From: Bacteroides sp.
GTDB taxonomy: Bacteria > Bacteroidota > Bacteroidia > Bacteroidales > Muribaculaceae
Length of the DNA: 64,000 bases
Reading direction: 5' to 3'
Assembly: GCA_014802265.1 (NCBI GenBank)
Contig: JAAVCP010000029.1
Span: forward strand, 1-64,000
The notes under the pieces are model-generated. The model saw nothing but the letters and a program-made list of their open reading frames with translations, was not told the DNA's origin and searched no databases. Below are positions 27,231-57,734 of the stretch, in pieces; positions within the stretch are counted from its first letter, which is position 1, and every line of letters begins with the position of its first letter. The translations under genes and the position numbers were made by a program.

Positions 27231-28646
27231 ATGACTCAGACATTAAAAGAAAAATTTGAAAAAGGATGGAAAGAACTACTTTCCTTTTTTAATGTGGCAG
27301 GCGATCTTGAGCCACAACAGGATATAGAGACCAGTATACGCTCCGGCGTAAGTTTTAAAGGAAGTCAACTCCTTGTGCTGATATTTGCAATTTTTATTGC
27401 ATCGCTTGGCTTAAACACCGACAGCATACCTGTTATTATCGGTGCCATGCTCATCTCTCCCCTCATGGGACCTATTATCGGAATGGGTCTTGCAATCGGT
27501 ATTCAGGATTTTGACCTTCTGAGAAGAAGCCTGAAAAATATTGGTATGGCGGTCATGGGTTCTTTGATTGCCTCAGCGATATATTTCCTGATATCACCTC
27601 AGTATGAGAATTCAAGCCAGTTACTTGCTCGCACTTCCCCGTCTATCTATGATGTGTTTGTAGCTTTGTTTGGCGGGGCAGCAGGCATTTTAAGTATTGC
27701 ATGCCGGAATAAAGGGCAGGTGATGCCAGGCGTAGCGATTGCTACTTCCCTTATGCCACCGCTTTGCACCGCTGGCTATGGGCTTGCCACTCTGCAATCA
27801 ACATTCTTCTTTGGTGCCTTATATCTGTTTTTTACCAACATGATCTTCATTCTTTTTGCCTCATGGATAGGGGTAAAGGCAATGAAGTTTAAGAAAGTGA
27901 TATATCAGGATACAAAGCGAAGTAAAAGGATCCACACGATAGTCTATTCTGTTGTGTTTATTACTATTGGCTTCAGCTGTTATCTTACTTATCAAATGAT
28001 CCAGAAGAATATATTTATGGCAGACGCCACAGCCTTTGTTGAGAATGAGATGGTGTTTCCTAACACGCAGGTGCTGAATCATAAAGAATACATAAGAAAT
28101 GGTGAAAGACATATTGATGTCACATTGATTGGGGAAGCTTTGCCAAAAGACTCACTTCAACTTGCAATGATGATGAAGCTTGACAGTGTTGGGCTTAGGG
28201 GGACATATCTTAGCATTAAGCAGGGCTTCTCATTAGATAATAACCTGTCGGGTGGAAATGAGGAGAAGGACTTTGGTCAGTTTTATACAGTGGTACAACA
28301 GGAGATGTCAGTTCGTCAGGCAATGATCGACTCATTGAAAGATGTTGTAAGGAGTCAAGAATGGCATGACAAGGCAAGCATCAATATAGCTCCTGAGGTA
28401 AGGGTTCTCTTCCCGGCAGTCAAAGACATAGCGTTTTCCAGAATGGTAGCAACTTCTGTAACCACAGATAAGACCGATACTGTAAATATGGTGTTTGTCA
28501 ACGCTCCTGTAGGTTTGAGCAATTCAGAACGTGGGAAATTGAAGGAGTACATAGGTGTGCGTTTAAAAGAGAAAAATGTTCATCTCGCTGTCAATCCGGC
28601 AGATTTTCCGTGGCCCTCACATAAAGTCAAGTCAACGGCAAGGTAA
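27231..28646 (+). CDS. DUF389 domain-containing membrane protein
   Basis: IFIASLGLNTDSIPVIIGAMLISPLMGPIIGMGLAIG; 471 aa. Confidence 0.9.
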   Translation: MTQTLKEKFEKGWKELLSFFNVAGDLEPQQDIETSIRSGVSFKGSQLLVLIFAIFIASLGLNTDSIPVIIGAMLISPLMGPIIGMGLAIGIQDFDLLRRSLKNIGMAVMGSLIASAIYFLISPQYENSSQLLARTSPSIYDVFVALFGGAAGILSIACRNKGQVMPGVAIATSLMPPLCTAGYGLATLQSTFFFGALYLFFTNMIFILFASWIGVKAMKFKKVIYQDTKRSKRIHTIVYSVVFITIGFSCYLTYQMIQKNIFMADATAFVENEMVFPNTQVLNHKEYIRNGERHIDVTLIGEALPKDSLQLAMMMKLDSVGLRGTYLSIKQGFSLDNNLSGGNEEKDFGQFYTVVQQEMSVRQAMIDSLKDVVRSQEWHDKASINIAPEVRVLFPAVKDIAFSRMVATSVTTDKTDTVNMVFVNAPVGLSNSERGKLKEYIGVRLKEKNVHLAVNPADFPWPSHKVKSTAR

Positions 28647-29616
28647 TCTGTATCTGTACGCCCTTATCCAGACGATTCCTTACAATCATTTCTCCTCCAT
28701 GAAGCCTTACAATCTGGCGGCACAGGAATAAGCCTATTCCTGTGCCGTCGCTTTTTGTGGTGGTAAAAGGCTGGAAAAGGTCTTTCATTATTTCCGGGGA
28801 TATGCCGTGTCCGTTGTCTGTGACTGTGATGATGGATTTTTCTTCGGAAGTGGTTGCAATGACAGTTACATTAGGATACTCAACACCTTGCACAGCTTCA
28901 AGAGAATTTTTAATTATGTTTCTCAGAGCCTGAGTCATCATTCCTTTATCAATAAGCATAAATGAATTTTGGGAAACTGAGAATGAGACGTGCTGTTCAG
29001 CATTGGGAGTTGCGGTCAGTCCTGATAGTCCCGCTTTTACATAATCAATAAATTCCGGCATTGGAATAATTTGCCTTTCGGGTGAGGGGAGATGAGTCAG
29101 TTCATAATAAGAGTCAAGAAATCTTTTTATTTCCAAGCCTTGGCAGTTGATTACCGAAATTGTATCAGTCAGAATCTCTCCATGATACTTTTCCGGTTTT
29201 GCTTGAATGTCGGAAGTCAAGGCTATAATGGGAGTAATTGCATTTCTCATCTCGTGGGTCATGATTTTGAGAATGCGGTCATAATATAGTTTCCTTGTTT
29301 CCAGTTCTCGTCGACTTGTCTTATACATAATGGCGATACGATTCATTGCTTCCGACATTTCATATAGTTCAGGGTCATCCTTACCTATGTCATAGCGCAT
29401 TGTACTGTCTGACATTTCCAGGCCTACAACAAATGATTGCATACTGTGGATTAGCTTTCTGATAAGTCGCCACAGATAAAACCCGAAGCCAAACACACTT
29501 AATACTGTCAGAATTGCCAAGGGGATGAATCCTTTATAAAATAGGAGAGTTGTCACTGCGGCAGAAGATATTATCCCGAGAATAAGAAAGAGTATATTTG
29601 TCTTGAAATGTTTCAT
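28627..29616 (-). CDS. Sensor histidine kinase
   Basis: H-box ILKIMTHEMRNAITPI, N-box IIKNSLEAVQG, GTGIGLFLCRQIVRLHGG. Confidence 0.92.
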   Translation of the reverse strand: MKHFKTNILFLILGIISSAAVTTLLFYKGFIPLAILTVLSVFGFGFYLWRLIRKLIHSMQSFVVGLEMSDSTMRYDIGKDDPELYEMSEAMNRIAIMYKTSRRELETRKLYYDRILKIMTHEMRNAITPIIALTSDIQAKPEKYHGEILTDTISVINCQGLEIKRFLDSYYELTHLPSPERQIIPMPEFIDYVKAGLSGLTATPNAEQHVSFSVSQNSFMLIDKGMMTQALRNIIKNSLEAVQGVEYPNVTVIATTSEEKSIITVTDNGHGISPEIMKDLFQPFTTTKSDGTGIGLFLCRQIVRLHGGEMIVRNRLDKGVQIQITLPLT

Positions 29617-30298: not shown

Positions 30299-31177
30299 AT
30301 GAGCGAACAGAAATCAATATATATAAATCCACTGACCGACTTCGGCTTTAAATTCCTATTTGGGCAGGAGGAAAACAAGGAGTTTCTCCTTTCGTTTCTA
30401 AATGCCTTGATGATAGGTGAGCCAACCATCACTGATGTTGAATTCGTGGATAAAGAAAAGGTAAACGAAAATAAAGATGGGCGGGCTTTAATCTATGATC
30501 TTCACTGCACAATGGCAGACGGGAGTAGAATTATAGTTGAGATGCAAAACCGTTACCAGACTTATTTTGAAGACCGAGCTTTATATTATCTTGCAGGCGA
30601 CCTGTATCTTCAGAGCAAGCAAGGTAATCTTTGGAAATATCAGTTGGTTCCTGTGTATGGTGTTTTTATGATGAACTTTGAATGGAAAGGTGATCTTGAC
30701 CAACAATTGAGGGAAGATGTGGGACTGTTGAATATGCGGACACATAAGCTGTTTTCCAATAAACTTAGGATGACGTTCCTGAAAATACCAATGATGACAA
30801 AGGATGCCCAAAGTTGTGAGAATATGCTTGAGAAATGGACGTATTTAATGAAAAACTTAGAGTCTTTGGAGTCGATGCCTAAGTTGTTTATGCGCGATCC
30901 GGTTTTTCAAAGACTTGATGAGGTGGCAAAGGTATCTGCCCTGAACCCTAAAGATAAGAAAGATTATGAGGAGTCGTTAAAGATTTATCATGATAACTAT
31001 GCTATAGCAGAGACTGAACGTGCTGAGGGATTAGCTGAAGGTAGGGAAAGAGGACGAGCTGAGGAGAAGCGAGCTATTGCCAGAGGTCTTCTAAAGCTTG
31101 GTATGACTGATGAGGCAATTTCACAAGTTACTAAACTTCCTGTAAGTCAAGTTGCTGCACTGCGAGCATCTTTATAA
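30299..31177 (+). CDS. Rpn family recombination-promoting nuclease / putative transposase (PD-(D/E)XK)
   Basis: INPLTDFGFKFLFGQEENKEFLLSFLNALM; IVEMQNRYQTYFEDRALYYLAGDL. Confidence 0.9.
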   Translation: MSEQKSIYINPLTDFGFKFLFGQEENKEFLLSFLNALMIGEPTITDVEFVDKEKVNENKDGRALIYDLHCTMADGSRIIVEMQNRYQTYFEDRALYYLAGDLYLQSKQGNLWKYQLVPVYGVFMMNFEWKGDLDQQLREDVGLLNMRTHKLFSNKLRMTFLKIPMMTKDAQSCENMLEKWTYLMKNLESLESMPKLFMRDPVFQRLDEVAKVSALNPKDKKDYEESLKIYHDNYAIAETERAEGLAEGRERGRAEEKRAIARGLLKLGMTDEAISQVTKLPVSQVAALRASL

Positions 31178-31286: not shown

Positions 31287-32111
31287 TTACTCTCTGACAA
31301 TTTTACCTGTGCTGATAATGTTGCCATCAGCATCCACAGCAACTACAGGATTTACACCAGCAGATAGACGATATGCCGGGATTTTGATTTCTGTTTCACC
31401 TTGTTTGCAATCTTTCTTAATAAGGAGGCTACCATTAGTACTGAATACGCTTATGGTCATATCGGCAGTAGCAGGAGTAGGAAGAGTGAGAGTCAATTCT
31501 TCATCTTCTTTCACAGGATTGGGATATGCAGTAAGCTTAGCTGTATCGTTTTTCATCATTGCAACAGAGTTGCCACCTTTGTTGATAGTATATAGGGCGG
31601 ATATATTTTGTTCGTTTACTCCATTTTCATATTGAGCGTAAAGGAAAATGTCGTCACCTAACTGGTAAAGTTTATTAGCTTGTGCTGGAATTTCTCCAAG
31701 CCATTCTCCTTTTTCATTATATATTACGAAAGGTTCATCCCAATCATATCGAAAGATTACTTCATATAAATCATCATCATTAAAAAGATGTTGAGTCACA
31801 AGAATTTCCTCAATATAGTCATCATTTTCTCCCACACAAGATAGTCTCCCATAGTAGGGATAGTCTTTAGGAGCTTCCACAGAGAATGTATAGATCGGTT
31901 CAACATCCGCTGAGAGTAGAATAAATGTATAGATGGGTTTTTCATCCTCTTCAGGTCTAATCATGGTTGCCAAAGGGGCAGCCGGTGCCATAAATGTTCT
32001 AAAAAGATAGTCACCTTCATCGTAGGCATGGCGAGTGAAAGTGACTTGGTCTGCGGCAGATACAGACAAAACACTGGATACGGCAAATGCCAATAGAAAT
32101 AAATTTTTCAT
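31287..32111 (-). CDS. Secreted protein with T9SS-type-A-like C-terminal sorting domain
   Basis: Signal peptide MKNLFLLAFAVSSVLSVSA; C-terminus LTAYPNPVKEDEELTLTLPTPATADMTISVFSTNGSLLIKKDC...GKIVRE. Confidence 0.75.
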   Translation of the reverse strand: MKNLFLLAFAVSSVLSVSAADQVTFTRHAYDEGDYLFRTFMAPAAPLATMIRPEEDEKPIYTFILLSADVEPIYTFSVEAPKDYPYYGRLSCVGENDDYIEEILVTQHLFNDDDLYEVIFRYDWDEPFVIYNEKGEWLGEIPAQANKLYQLGDDIFLYAQYENGVNEQNISALYTINKGGNSVAMMKNDTAKLTAYPNPVKEDEELTLTLPTPATADMTISVFSTNGSLLIKKDCKQGETEIKIPAYRLSAGVNPVVAVDADGNIISTGKIVRE

Positions 32112-32249
32112 AAAAATGAATTTTGCTGTTAAAATGAATTTTAAAGATATTCCGGTGGGATATATAAAATTAATAATCTAAGTAAATACTAAATCCACAC
32201 CATAGAGTAGTAAGTGGCAAGAACGTATGAAAAGGGCGTGTACCATTCT

Positions 32250-32390
32250 TGATAGCCTGCTTCTTATCTGGTTACCGCCAAGTGACCTTTACTCAGTACA
32301 AGCATAGAACAGTTCACGCCTTATCAGCGTGAACTTCCAGTCTGCTTGTCCTTCTGAGTTGAATATTGGCGGTATTCGATAAGAAAGAAC
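32250..32390 (-). ncRNA. Candidate structured RNA: long rod-like element with several perfect helices; strand assigned from the promoter
   Basis: Nested pairs (+ coordinates): ttcttatc ~32261-32268 / gataagaa ~32378-32385; taccgccaa / ttggcggta; actcag / ctgagt; acaagca / tgcttgt; agttcacgc / gcgtgaact around a 7-nt loop. Confidence 0.5.
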
Positions 32391-32707
32391 AAGAGCCAAA
32401 AGCTCAATATATTTAACAAGAAGAACCAACATCATGGTGATGATGGGATTCTGTCATATTGACAAATATAAGAATGGAAACGCATATTTCAGATTCTGCA
32501 TGCTGTCCGATACCGGGCAGGTTCATTTATTGTCTGAGGGAGCAGTCTTAGGCTGATAGTTTCCCTATGCGCTTCGTTTTATTTCTGTTTATTACCTCCT
32601 TTTTTAATTGTTAACATTTTATTCAGCAGTAACTCAATAAATGTTGCTGCAAATAGTTCCCAAATTCTATTGATCATCAATTATCGCTTTGAAAAACTAT
32701 TTATCGG

Positions 32708-32739
32708 CAAAAGTAGTTAAAAAATATGATATATGCAAA
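32708..32739 (-). promoter_or_regulatory. Bacteroidetes-type promoter (-33 TTTG, -7 TACTTTTG, 20-nt spacer) reading into the 32.1-32.7 kb intergenic region
   Basis: Minus strand TTTG-N20-TACTTTTG matches TTTG/TAnnTTTG; about 590 nt upstream of the 31287..32111 start codon. Confidence 0.6.
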
Positions 32740-32764
32740 GTTTTATGGGAATGTACAAAATTAA

Positions 32765-34120
32765 TTATTTTTTTAATAGTTCGTTAATAAAGTCGGGGAG
32801 AGCAGGTGATTGGTATTTGGGCACATTAGAATCAATCACACCTTCTTGGTTAATTAAATAGTAAGAGGGAAATCCTCTTATATTTAGTTTCCCTATCATT
32901 TGGTTGGAAGCATCTTCATCGCTTATAAAAATATGAACAGCATTTTTAATAGTAGGAATCAATTCTTTCCATTGTTCAAGATTAGAACGTAGCCAAACAA
33001 TGGCAAATACAATGTCAGTATTGCTGAAATACTCACGGATCCCTTCAGAGTCAGTAAGTGCCTCTCTGCACGGACCACACCATGTAGCAGATATATCAAG
33101 GTATATAGGTTGCCCTTTAAACCGGTCAATCAGCCATGACACAGGCTCTGCATCGGCAATATTGTAAACAGAATCGTTTTCGTAAACGACAATCTCAGAT
33201 GGATTTATCTTACCAAGTTCTATTATTGAATTCTTTTCTTCGAAAACCCGGTCATAGTAAGTGGTATTAGCAAAATTGGAGCGTTCCGGTGTATTCTTTG
33301 TAAACTCTGCCCATTTAATATACATAATGTCACGTATCAGACCTTTGGGCATTTGTTCCACATATTCCGGCACATTAAATATAAGAGCACTGAGATGATA
33401 AGGGAATATCATCAATTTAGTATACTCTTCATTCCTGATATTGAACAACGAGTCGGTAAAAAATGCAAGCATATCATCTTTTCCCTTACCTTGATAGGTA
33501 CAGGCTAAATTAGCAATCGAAAATAGATTATCTATGTATAGCATCTCTGCAACTTCCAATGATACATTATTTTCCTTAACGCACGTATCAATGATTGCCT
33601 GAATACGCTCTACCTCCGATTTGAAAGCCGGCAGATATTCAGCTATGGGAACTGTGTCAGGAGGTAAAGTAATTTCCCACCAATTATGAGCCAGTTTATT
33701 CCGAATATGAGAATATTCTTCATTAAGAATTGCATGATTACCGGAAATGGTATAACTTATCGGAGATTGCGAGGCATCAATCTCTATGTGGATTGAATCA
33801 TTAGGCTCGGCGTATGCGTTTATGAAGTTCCCGGAATAGTTCACAGTAAACGTATGACCGTAGTTAATCGGCACATTAAGTGAGAAATAACCTAAAGAAT
33901 CAACTTCCACTACTTGCCTACTACTACATTGTGCAATATCACATTCGTTTACGATCATGGTCTTAGAACCATGATCAGGGATATTACTTACTTTCCCTGT
34001 CAGAATAAAAGAAGGAAACACATCATTCTGTGGCGATAGTGCCATGACTTCAGATGTCAGAGCAAATATTACCAAGGCATGCAGAATAATAGATATGGGG
34101 TTAAAACAATTCATAATCAC
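32765..34120 (-). CDS. TlpA-like thioredoxin-fold protein (secreted)
   Basis: Signal peptide; IYLDISATWCGPCREALTDSEGIREYF; GFPSYYLINQEG. Confidence 0.88.
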   Translation of the reverse strand: MIMNCFNPISIILHALVIFALTSEVMALSPQNDVFPSFILTGKVSNIPDHGSKTMIVNECDIAQCSSRQVVEVDSLGYFSLNVPINYGHTFTVNYSGNFINAYAEPNDSIHIEIDASQSPISYTISGNHAILNEEYSHIRNKLAHNWWEITLPPDTVPIAEYLPAFKSEVERIQAIIDTCVKENNVSLEVAEMLYIDNLFSIANLACTYQGKGKDDMLAFFTDSLFNIRNEEYTKLMIFPYHLSALIFNVPEYVEQMPKGLIRDIMYIKWAEFTKNTPERSNFANTTYYDRVFEEKNSIIELGKINPSEIVVYENDSVYNIADAEPVSWLIDRFKGQPIYLDISATWCGPCREALTDSEGIREYFSNTDIVFAIVWLRSNLEQWKELIPTIKNAVHIFISDEDASNQMIGKLNIRGFPSYYLINQEGVIDSNVPKYQSPALPDFINELLKK

Positions 34121-56910: not shown

Positions 56911-57555
56911 ATGAAAGTATCACCCTCATTATTATCAGCTAATTTTGCTAATTTAACTCCTGATATAGAGATGCTTAATAATTCGGAAGCCGATTATCTG
57001 CATCTTGATGTGATGGATGGGGTATTTGTTCCTAATATATCTTTTGGGTTTCCTGTGCTTAAAGCAGTCAGCAAAATATGTGAGAAACCATTGGATGTGC
57101 ATCTTATGATTATTGAACCTGAAAAATGGATTTCACAGGTGAGAGATCTTGGTGCTGAATATATGAATGTGCATCAAGAGGCATGTCTGCATCTTCACAG
57201 CACAGTAAGTCGTATCCATGATGCCGGCATGAAAGCAGCTGTGACCTTAAATCCGTCTACCCCTGTATCGCTGCTTTCAGACATTATCACGGATGTAGAC
57301 ATGGTACTTCTTATGTCGGTCAATCCAGGATTTGGAGGTCAGAAGTTTATCGCCAATACCCTCAAGAAGGTAAGGGAACTTCGCCAGCTGATTGCAGAGT
57401 CAGGTTCGCAGGCTTTGATAGAGATTGACGGCGGAGTGAATGCGCAAACAGGAAAACAACTTGCTGAAGTAGGAGCTGATATTCTTGTTGCAGGCAGCTA
57501 TGTATTTGGAGCCTCAAATCCGGAAGAGAGAATCAACCTCTTGAAAAATCTCTGA
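56911..57555 (+). CDS. rpe: Ribulose-phosphate 3-epimerase
   Basis: SPSLLSANFANL, HLDVMDGVFVPNISFG, MSVNPGFGGQKFI, EIDGGVN. Confidence 0.96.
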   Translation: MKVSPSLLSANFANLTPDIEMLNNSEADYLHLDVMDGVFVPNISFGFPVLKAVSKICEKPLDVHLMIIEPEKWISQVRDLGAEYMNVHQEACLHLHSTVSRIHDAGMKAAVTLNPSTPVSLLSDIITDVDMVLLMSVNPGFGGQKFIANTLKKVRELRQLIAESGSQALIEIDGGVNAQTGKQLAEVGADILVAGSYVFGASNPEERINLLKNL

Positions 57556-57569
57556 TTACCGATTTCTGC

Positions 57570-57627
57570 TATATGCCTTGCAGCCGCCATTCTGTAAATT
57601 TACAGAATGGCGGCTGCAAGGCATATA
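57570..57627. repeat. Perfect 58-bp palindrome (29-bp arms, no spacer); possibly the rpe terminator
   Basis: tatatgccttgcagccgccattctgtaaa|tttacagaatggcggctgcaaggcatata. Confidence 0.95.
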
Positions 57628-57734
57628 TATAATAAGACATTTATTATTACGTTATAATAATAAACCAAGTAATTTTAAGGTGTGGTTAGGGAGTCCAGCT
57701 ATAAGGACTGAAATCTTAAAGTAGTAATTTACAA

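Follow-up and report, generated by a model that had tools for sequence, protein, structure and literature searches.

A predicted rod-shaped RNA upstream of a secreted-protein gene in a Muribaculaceae genome, a probable member of an uncatalogued family of proposed Bacteroidales leader RNAs

The rod and its surroundings

The window analysed here is a 64,000-nt stretch of DNA from Bacteroides sp. (Muribaculaceae; contig JAAVCP010000029.1, positions 1 to 64,000). Within it, a long rod-like palindrome at 32250-32390 sits between two minus-strand genes, one encoding a thioredoxin-like protein (32765-34120) and the other a 274-aa secreted protein (31287-32111), which has a signal peptide and whose C-terminus resembles a type IX sorting domain (Por_Secre_tail, 25.4 bits, E 1.8e-5, slightly below the 27-bit cut-off). 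Besides these flanking genes, no open reading frame longer than 48 aa was found in 32112-32764, in agreement with a preliminary description of this DNA that had called the gap non-coding, and no reverse transcriptase is encoded by the genes directly flanking the rod. Two other features of the gap were considered and set aside: a short plus-strand reading frame at 32434-32553 (MVMMGFCHIDKYKNGNAYFRFCMLSDTGQVHLLSEGAVLG), suspected to be a DUF1508-like fragment, has no match in Pfam and gave chance hits only in relatives, and an AT-rich motif at 32570-32607 common with other genomes was judged coincidental, with one match seemingly coding and another adjoining a cobalamin riboswitch. A PD-(D/E)XK nuclease family transposase (PF12784, 180 bits) is encoded at 30299-31177.

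The rod consists of five nested helices at 32261-32385 (32261-32268/32378-32385, 32273-32281/32366-32374, 32291-32296/32354-32359, 32298-32304/32343-32349, and 32311-32319/32327-32335). All five had been reported as perfect in the preliminary description and all five are present in the sequence, with a predicted pairing probability above 0.9 for most base pairs. The rod folds beyond its shuffled controls on either strand: the plus strand reaches -60.7 kcal/mol (z = -5.2, none of 200 shuffles as good), and the minus strand does better (-63.0 kcal/mol, z = -6.1). It is the sole long interrupted rod that we found in the non-coding parts of the window, where the remaining low-energy places inspected are simple terminator-like hairpins. 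One of these, at 57569-57628 after gene 56911-57555, is a perfect 27-bp hairpin with a short loop, the strongest fold of the window and probably a terminator. A strong 16-bp palindrome also occurs at 28700-28750, within a sensor kinase gene (28627-29616, minus strand), where it lies in the 3' part over the GTGIGLFLCRQ motif; the fold energy there is unusual for coding sequence.

On the minus strand, the rod is preceded by a putative Bacteroidetes-type promoter at 32463-32493 (TCTG at 32493-32490, a 19-nt spacer, and TATATTTG at 32470-32463), which would place the rod in the leader of the secreted-protein gene, with a transcription start likely near 32457. The leader so delimited, about 345 nt long, folds with a z of -5.6. 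Reading towards the gene, it contains a predicted 5' hairpin (GAAUCCCAUCAUCACCAUGAUGUUGGUUC) at 32423-32451, a small predicted hairpin at 32393-32405 (GAGC-UUUUG-GCUC, at the rod's 5' foot), the rod domain itself at 32256-32390, and a predicted 8-bp post-rod helix (CAAGAAUG/CGUUCUUG) around a ACACGCCCUUUUCAU tail at 32218-32251, together with a short U-tract of only four U at 32230-32233. The rod of about 130 nt that had first been described thus stands as a fold, and its extent needs revision since the probable transcript has further hairpins on both sides.

A family of rods in Bacteroidales

At the DNA level the rod is single-copy, and no homologue was found by DNA search in the genus, phages, or plasmids. 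Upstream of an orthologue of the window gene (62% identity), in a genome of the same genus (G130), there is likewise a large rod (z -6.6). More intergenic rods emerged when about 437 kb, nearly all from the window's own genome, were scanned for folds; three of these and two relatives have conserved segments in common, while their stems differ yet still pair, and none of the five has an Rfam match. We built covariance models from these five rods (R1), from 33 members (R2), and from 69 members (R3), and left the window rod out of all three. R1 detected members in 28 of 111 genomes from the genus; R2 did so in 162 of 397 genomes from the taxonomic family (23 of 30 genera) and in 42 of 393 genomes across the order (27 of 207 genera). 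Given Infernal's stricter filters and the sampling of genomes, these counts are lower bounds. Viral contigs gave 23 exact matches to the family's core 16-mer and one weak, GC-rich match to the model, judged chance, and no convincing viral copy.

Several individual members deserve mention. In one genome (G000), a rod and an ABC-transporter gene are shared by two contigs (L057 and L056, at C3:18806-19034 and C39:35781-36009), probably a redundant assembly, which agrees with its estimated contamination of 5.6%. Another genome (G106) carries, on one contig, two members of equal score that are separated by about 5 kb (C59:19010-19179 and C59:24444-24613), suggesting leader duplication. A shorter subtype of 122-132 nt, with a foot resembling AAAAGCGU ... 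ACGCUUUUUU, is present in other families of the order (L126, L127, L130, L132, L133, L136, L138, L141, L142, L145), and the window rod, at 135 nt, is close to it in length. Among the relatives of the window locus, the sole named one is an uncultured Porphyromonadaceae bacterium.

Covariation, proposed in the preliminary description as a check, is present in the family alignment. In the 69-member alignment, which was fitted to the model and is thereby biased towards structure, 84.4% of cells are paired (63.7% in shuffles), and 593 pair-cells have both sides changed, compared with 178 in shuffles and at most 129 in slid controls; the 33-member set gave the same outcome. There are positions in helix 1 with all four Watson-Crick pair types and no broken pair in 69 sequences, a variety that is hard to obtain from model fitting. 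Of the two strands, that of the gene is more stable in 83 of 85 members, and it has 709 G-U pairs where the opposite strand has 288, a bias expected for an RNA read in the direction of the gene. The rod had initially been taken as an RNA of the plus strand, a reading that we reverse because the minus strand is favored by the family and the promoter as well as by G-U usage and fold energy.

Layout of the leaders and competing readings

The members have a common order of promoter box, 5' hairpin, rod, U-tract, short helix, and start codon. A TAnnTTTG box lies 70-130 nt upstream of the rod in 67 of 85 rows (window included). The 5' hairpin is frequent, but reaches z < -2 in only 67% of the members having the box. 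At the 5' foot of the rod, a small self-complementary segment is often seen by eye (e.g., AAAAGC-GUUA-GCUUUU), and the rod itself has conserved internal-loop sequences (GAAC..., AGGU...ACC). The typical foot reads AAAAAGGUGU ... ACACCUUUUU. Its 5' side can pair with a segment ending in the U-tract, and this closing helix scores at least 16 in 76% of members as opposed to 5% of shuffles; when the pairs are swapped between members, the mean is still 16.8 against 19.1, so that much of the foot signal is shared consensus sequence. A second foot helix, in which a segment before ACACC is able to pair with one just ahead of the start codon, occurs in 64% of members and 29% of swapped pairs, with compensatory forms such as GGUUUCC/GGGAACC and GUUCCC/GGGAAC. 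With swapped controls this high, we place less confidence in the two foot helices than in the rod.

The same layout could be read as that of a stand-alone, trans-acting small RNA of roughly 200-270 nt, which would start at the box and end at the U-tract, the gene behind being incidental or reached by read-through. The fixed promoter placement suits such an RNA, as does the rod foot with its U-tract, which resembles an intrinsic terminator in 72 of 86 rows (five or more T within 45 nt of the rod, found in 9 of 86 rows in a control region). What makes this unlikely is the tie to the gene: the first start codon opening 50 residues clusters at 70-89 nt past the rod (44 rows, about half of the members), 61 of 67 rods have a same-strand gene of at least 80 residues that starts within 200 nt (11 of 67 have a divergent one), and sequence conservation runs beyond the U-tract nearly to the start codon. 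The window copy, with its four U and no closing helix, also fits poorly with a terminated small RNA.

We scanned 68 downstream proteins, that of the window among them: 10 have BspA-type repeats and four belong to TerB, while the others are scattered over lipocalin-like, beta-barrel, carboxypeptidase-regulatory-like, and LytTR proteins and families without assignment. By a crude rule uncalibrated against the genome background, about 44 of 61 (some 70%) look exported, with a signal peptide or lipobox. No shared metabolic pathway is apparent among the 68. The idea that the leader precedes type IX cargo genes only was dropped as more downstream genes were seen. Because the genes are diverse and mostly exported, with no one pathway, the trigger of a regulatory leader is likelier to be a shared RNA-binding protein, a small RNA, or a physical condition than one metabolite.

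The many kinds of genes behind the rods would also suit a constitutive leader, which, without any switch, stabilizes the 5' end of the mRNA or boosts translation; a very stable rod close to the probable transcript start and its strict placement fit a stabilizer or enhancer too. The conserved internal loops and the alternative foot pairings exceed the needs of bulk stability, and we regard a purely constitutive role as quite improbable.

A mobile or cassette-like palindrome (MITE, REP, or integron attC-like), whose working form is hairpin DNA, would account for dispersed copies, diverse genes behind them, and a hairpin better conserved than its sequence. The strand bias in G-U pairs and stability and the fixed spacing to promoter and start codon point instead to an RNA; no attC core sites were seen by eye, and no target-site duplication was noticed at the window copy. 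MITE and REP elements are expected in many near-identical copies per genome, in contrast to the single-copy window rod, and neither blastn against phages and plasmids nor the viral contigs gave a convincing copy. The preliminary description had named a mobile-element inverted repeat as the finding that would speak against it, and no repeat match was found. A mobile palindrome is thus very unlikely here.

The window copy and the proposed leader

The window rod was recovered by each of the three models. With R1 and filters off, on a 681-nt segment, the rod scored 25.9 bits when read on the minus strand, compared with 4.5 for the plus strand; R2 gave 21.8 bits (E 3.5e-4); and R3 matched the rod over its full length (model positions 1-167) on the minus strand, with 28.6 bits and E 7.1e-6 for the whole window, where the next best match has 16.2 bits. 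This score is modest, and bits alone are insufficient to settle membership, since 27-43 bits can be reached even by the wrong strand of true members.

Other features of the copy bear on the same question. Its TATATTTG box lies 80 nt upstream of the rod, within the 70-130 nt of the family, and it keeps the internal loop (with GAA as its left and ACC as its right side) as well as the AGGU motif; the helix between this loop and the motif is different yet paired (UACCGCC/GGCGGUA in place of CUUGGCG/CGCCAAG). Its post-rod 8-bp helix would be the counterpart of the family's UCCUC/GAGGA pairing, with a partner much closer than in most members. The copy departs from the family in its U-tract (UUUU at 32233-32230, short of five or more), its start codon (144 nt after the rod, outside 70-89 nt), and its closing helix, which was not found (score 0). 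A homologue of the window gene in another genome (G089, 31% identity) lies behind a family member of 38.0 bits. The leader of the orthologue in G130 has 4.8 bits by R2, not significant, and is joined to the family only via its resemblance to the leader in G089; together, the match in G089 and this likeness indicate that all three examined homologues of the window gene have a rod leader. Aligned directly, the sequences of the window leader and the G130 leader are no more alike than by chance on the gene strand; the link runs via the family model and G089.

The window rod is best placed as a divergent member of the family. That it is an unrelated chance or terminator palindrome, as its modest bits, distant start codon, and missing closing helix might suggest, is also very unlikely, given a full-length gene-strand match at E 7e-6 with other window hairpins at 16.2 bits or less, a promoter box in the family position, and the leaders of homologous genes elsewhere.

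The structure, strand, and placement of the family are supported by computation. For the window, we consider it probable that the minus-strand rod is the structured 5' leader of gene 31287-32111 and that it belongs, as a divergent copy, to a large and uncatalogued Bacteroidales family of cis-acting leader RNAs. Such a leader would be transcribed from near 32457 and fold into the 5' hairpin, the rod, and a foot flanking the U-tract. The two foot pairings would be alternatives, the closing helix ending in the U-tract versus the second helix reaching towards the start codon, and through its foot the leader would alternate between a state that stops or hides the gene and one that lets it be expressed, either by gating transcription beyond the U-tract or by gating access to the start codon. 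The trigger would more likely be a common RNA-binding protein, small RNA, or physical condition than a single metabolite. As the closing helix was not found in the window copy, its switching may be altered or lost.

More tentatively, a widespread type of large, bistable leader RNA, found in about 40% of the sampled genomes of one Bacteroidales family and scattered in many others, may bring unrelated surface, lipoprotein, and accessory genes under one post-initiation control via a trans factor. The family may coordinate bacterial surface display, as its members precede genes for BspA-type repeat proteins, lipoproteins, beta-barrels, and probable type IX cargo. If true, the shared control would amount to a global RNA regulon in a phylum about whose post-transcriptional regulation little is known, and a covarying RNA family so common in Bacteroidales yet absent from Rfam 15 would offer a new handle on their gene control. 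The conserved loops and covarying stems lend themselves to directly testable mutants.

Comparison with known systems

The rod-leader family is absent from Rfam 15 and uncatalogued there: nothing in the window is above threshold, and around the rod there is only noise at E up to 10. The suggestion of a candidate novel structured RNA is thereby borne out by a covariation-backed family, while a likeness to 6S RNA, also suggested, did not hold. The 6S model (RF00013) has no match anywhere in the window's genome, and the resemblance is one of rod-like overall shape; the rod family is placed as a 5' leader and is without a large central bubble. RF01693 (Bacteroidales-1, for which Rfam notes '6S-Bacteroidales RNA suggested') is likewise a long structured RNA of Bacteroidales, about 180 nt, but matches a separate locus of the same genome (114 bits), and its model has no match to the rod or its relatives.

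A human-microbiome screen lists 3161 unnamed candidates, including some palindromic ones of similar length from Bacteroidetes, such as HMP2_4205, which is 132 bp long, palindromic, near TPR genes, and terminator-predicted (Fremin and Bhatt, 2021; PMC8040213). By description, their length, phylum, palindrome, and U-tract are compatible with the rod family, whereas the contexts stated there (TPR, RuvA, TonB) differ from the genes that we see; it is possible, as far as such descriptions go, that the family was partly predicted among these candidates.

Like intrinsic terminators, most members have a stem and then a U-tract (the window copy lacks the closing stem), but they differ in being interrupted rods of 120-200 nt, in the conservation of their internal loops, and in having a gene start 70-89 nt on. 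Compared with riboswitches and protein-binding mRNA leaders, the rod family has no known ligand and its genes are without a common pathway, but it shares with them a structured 5' leader, a fixed distance to the start codon, and possible alternative pairings at its foot.
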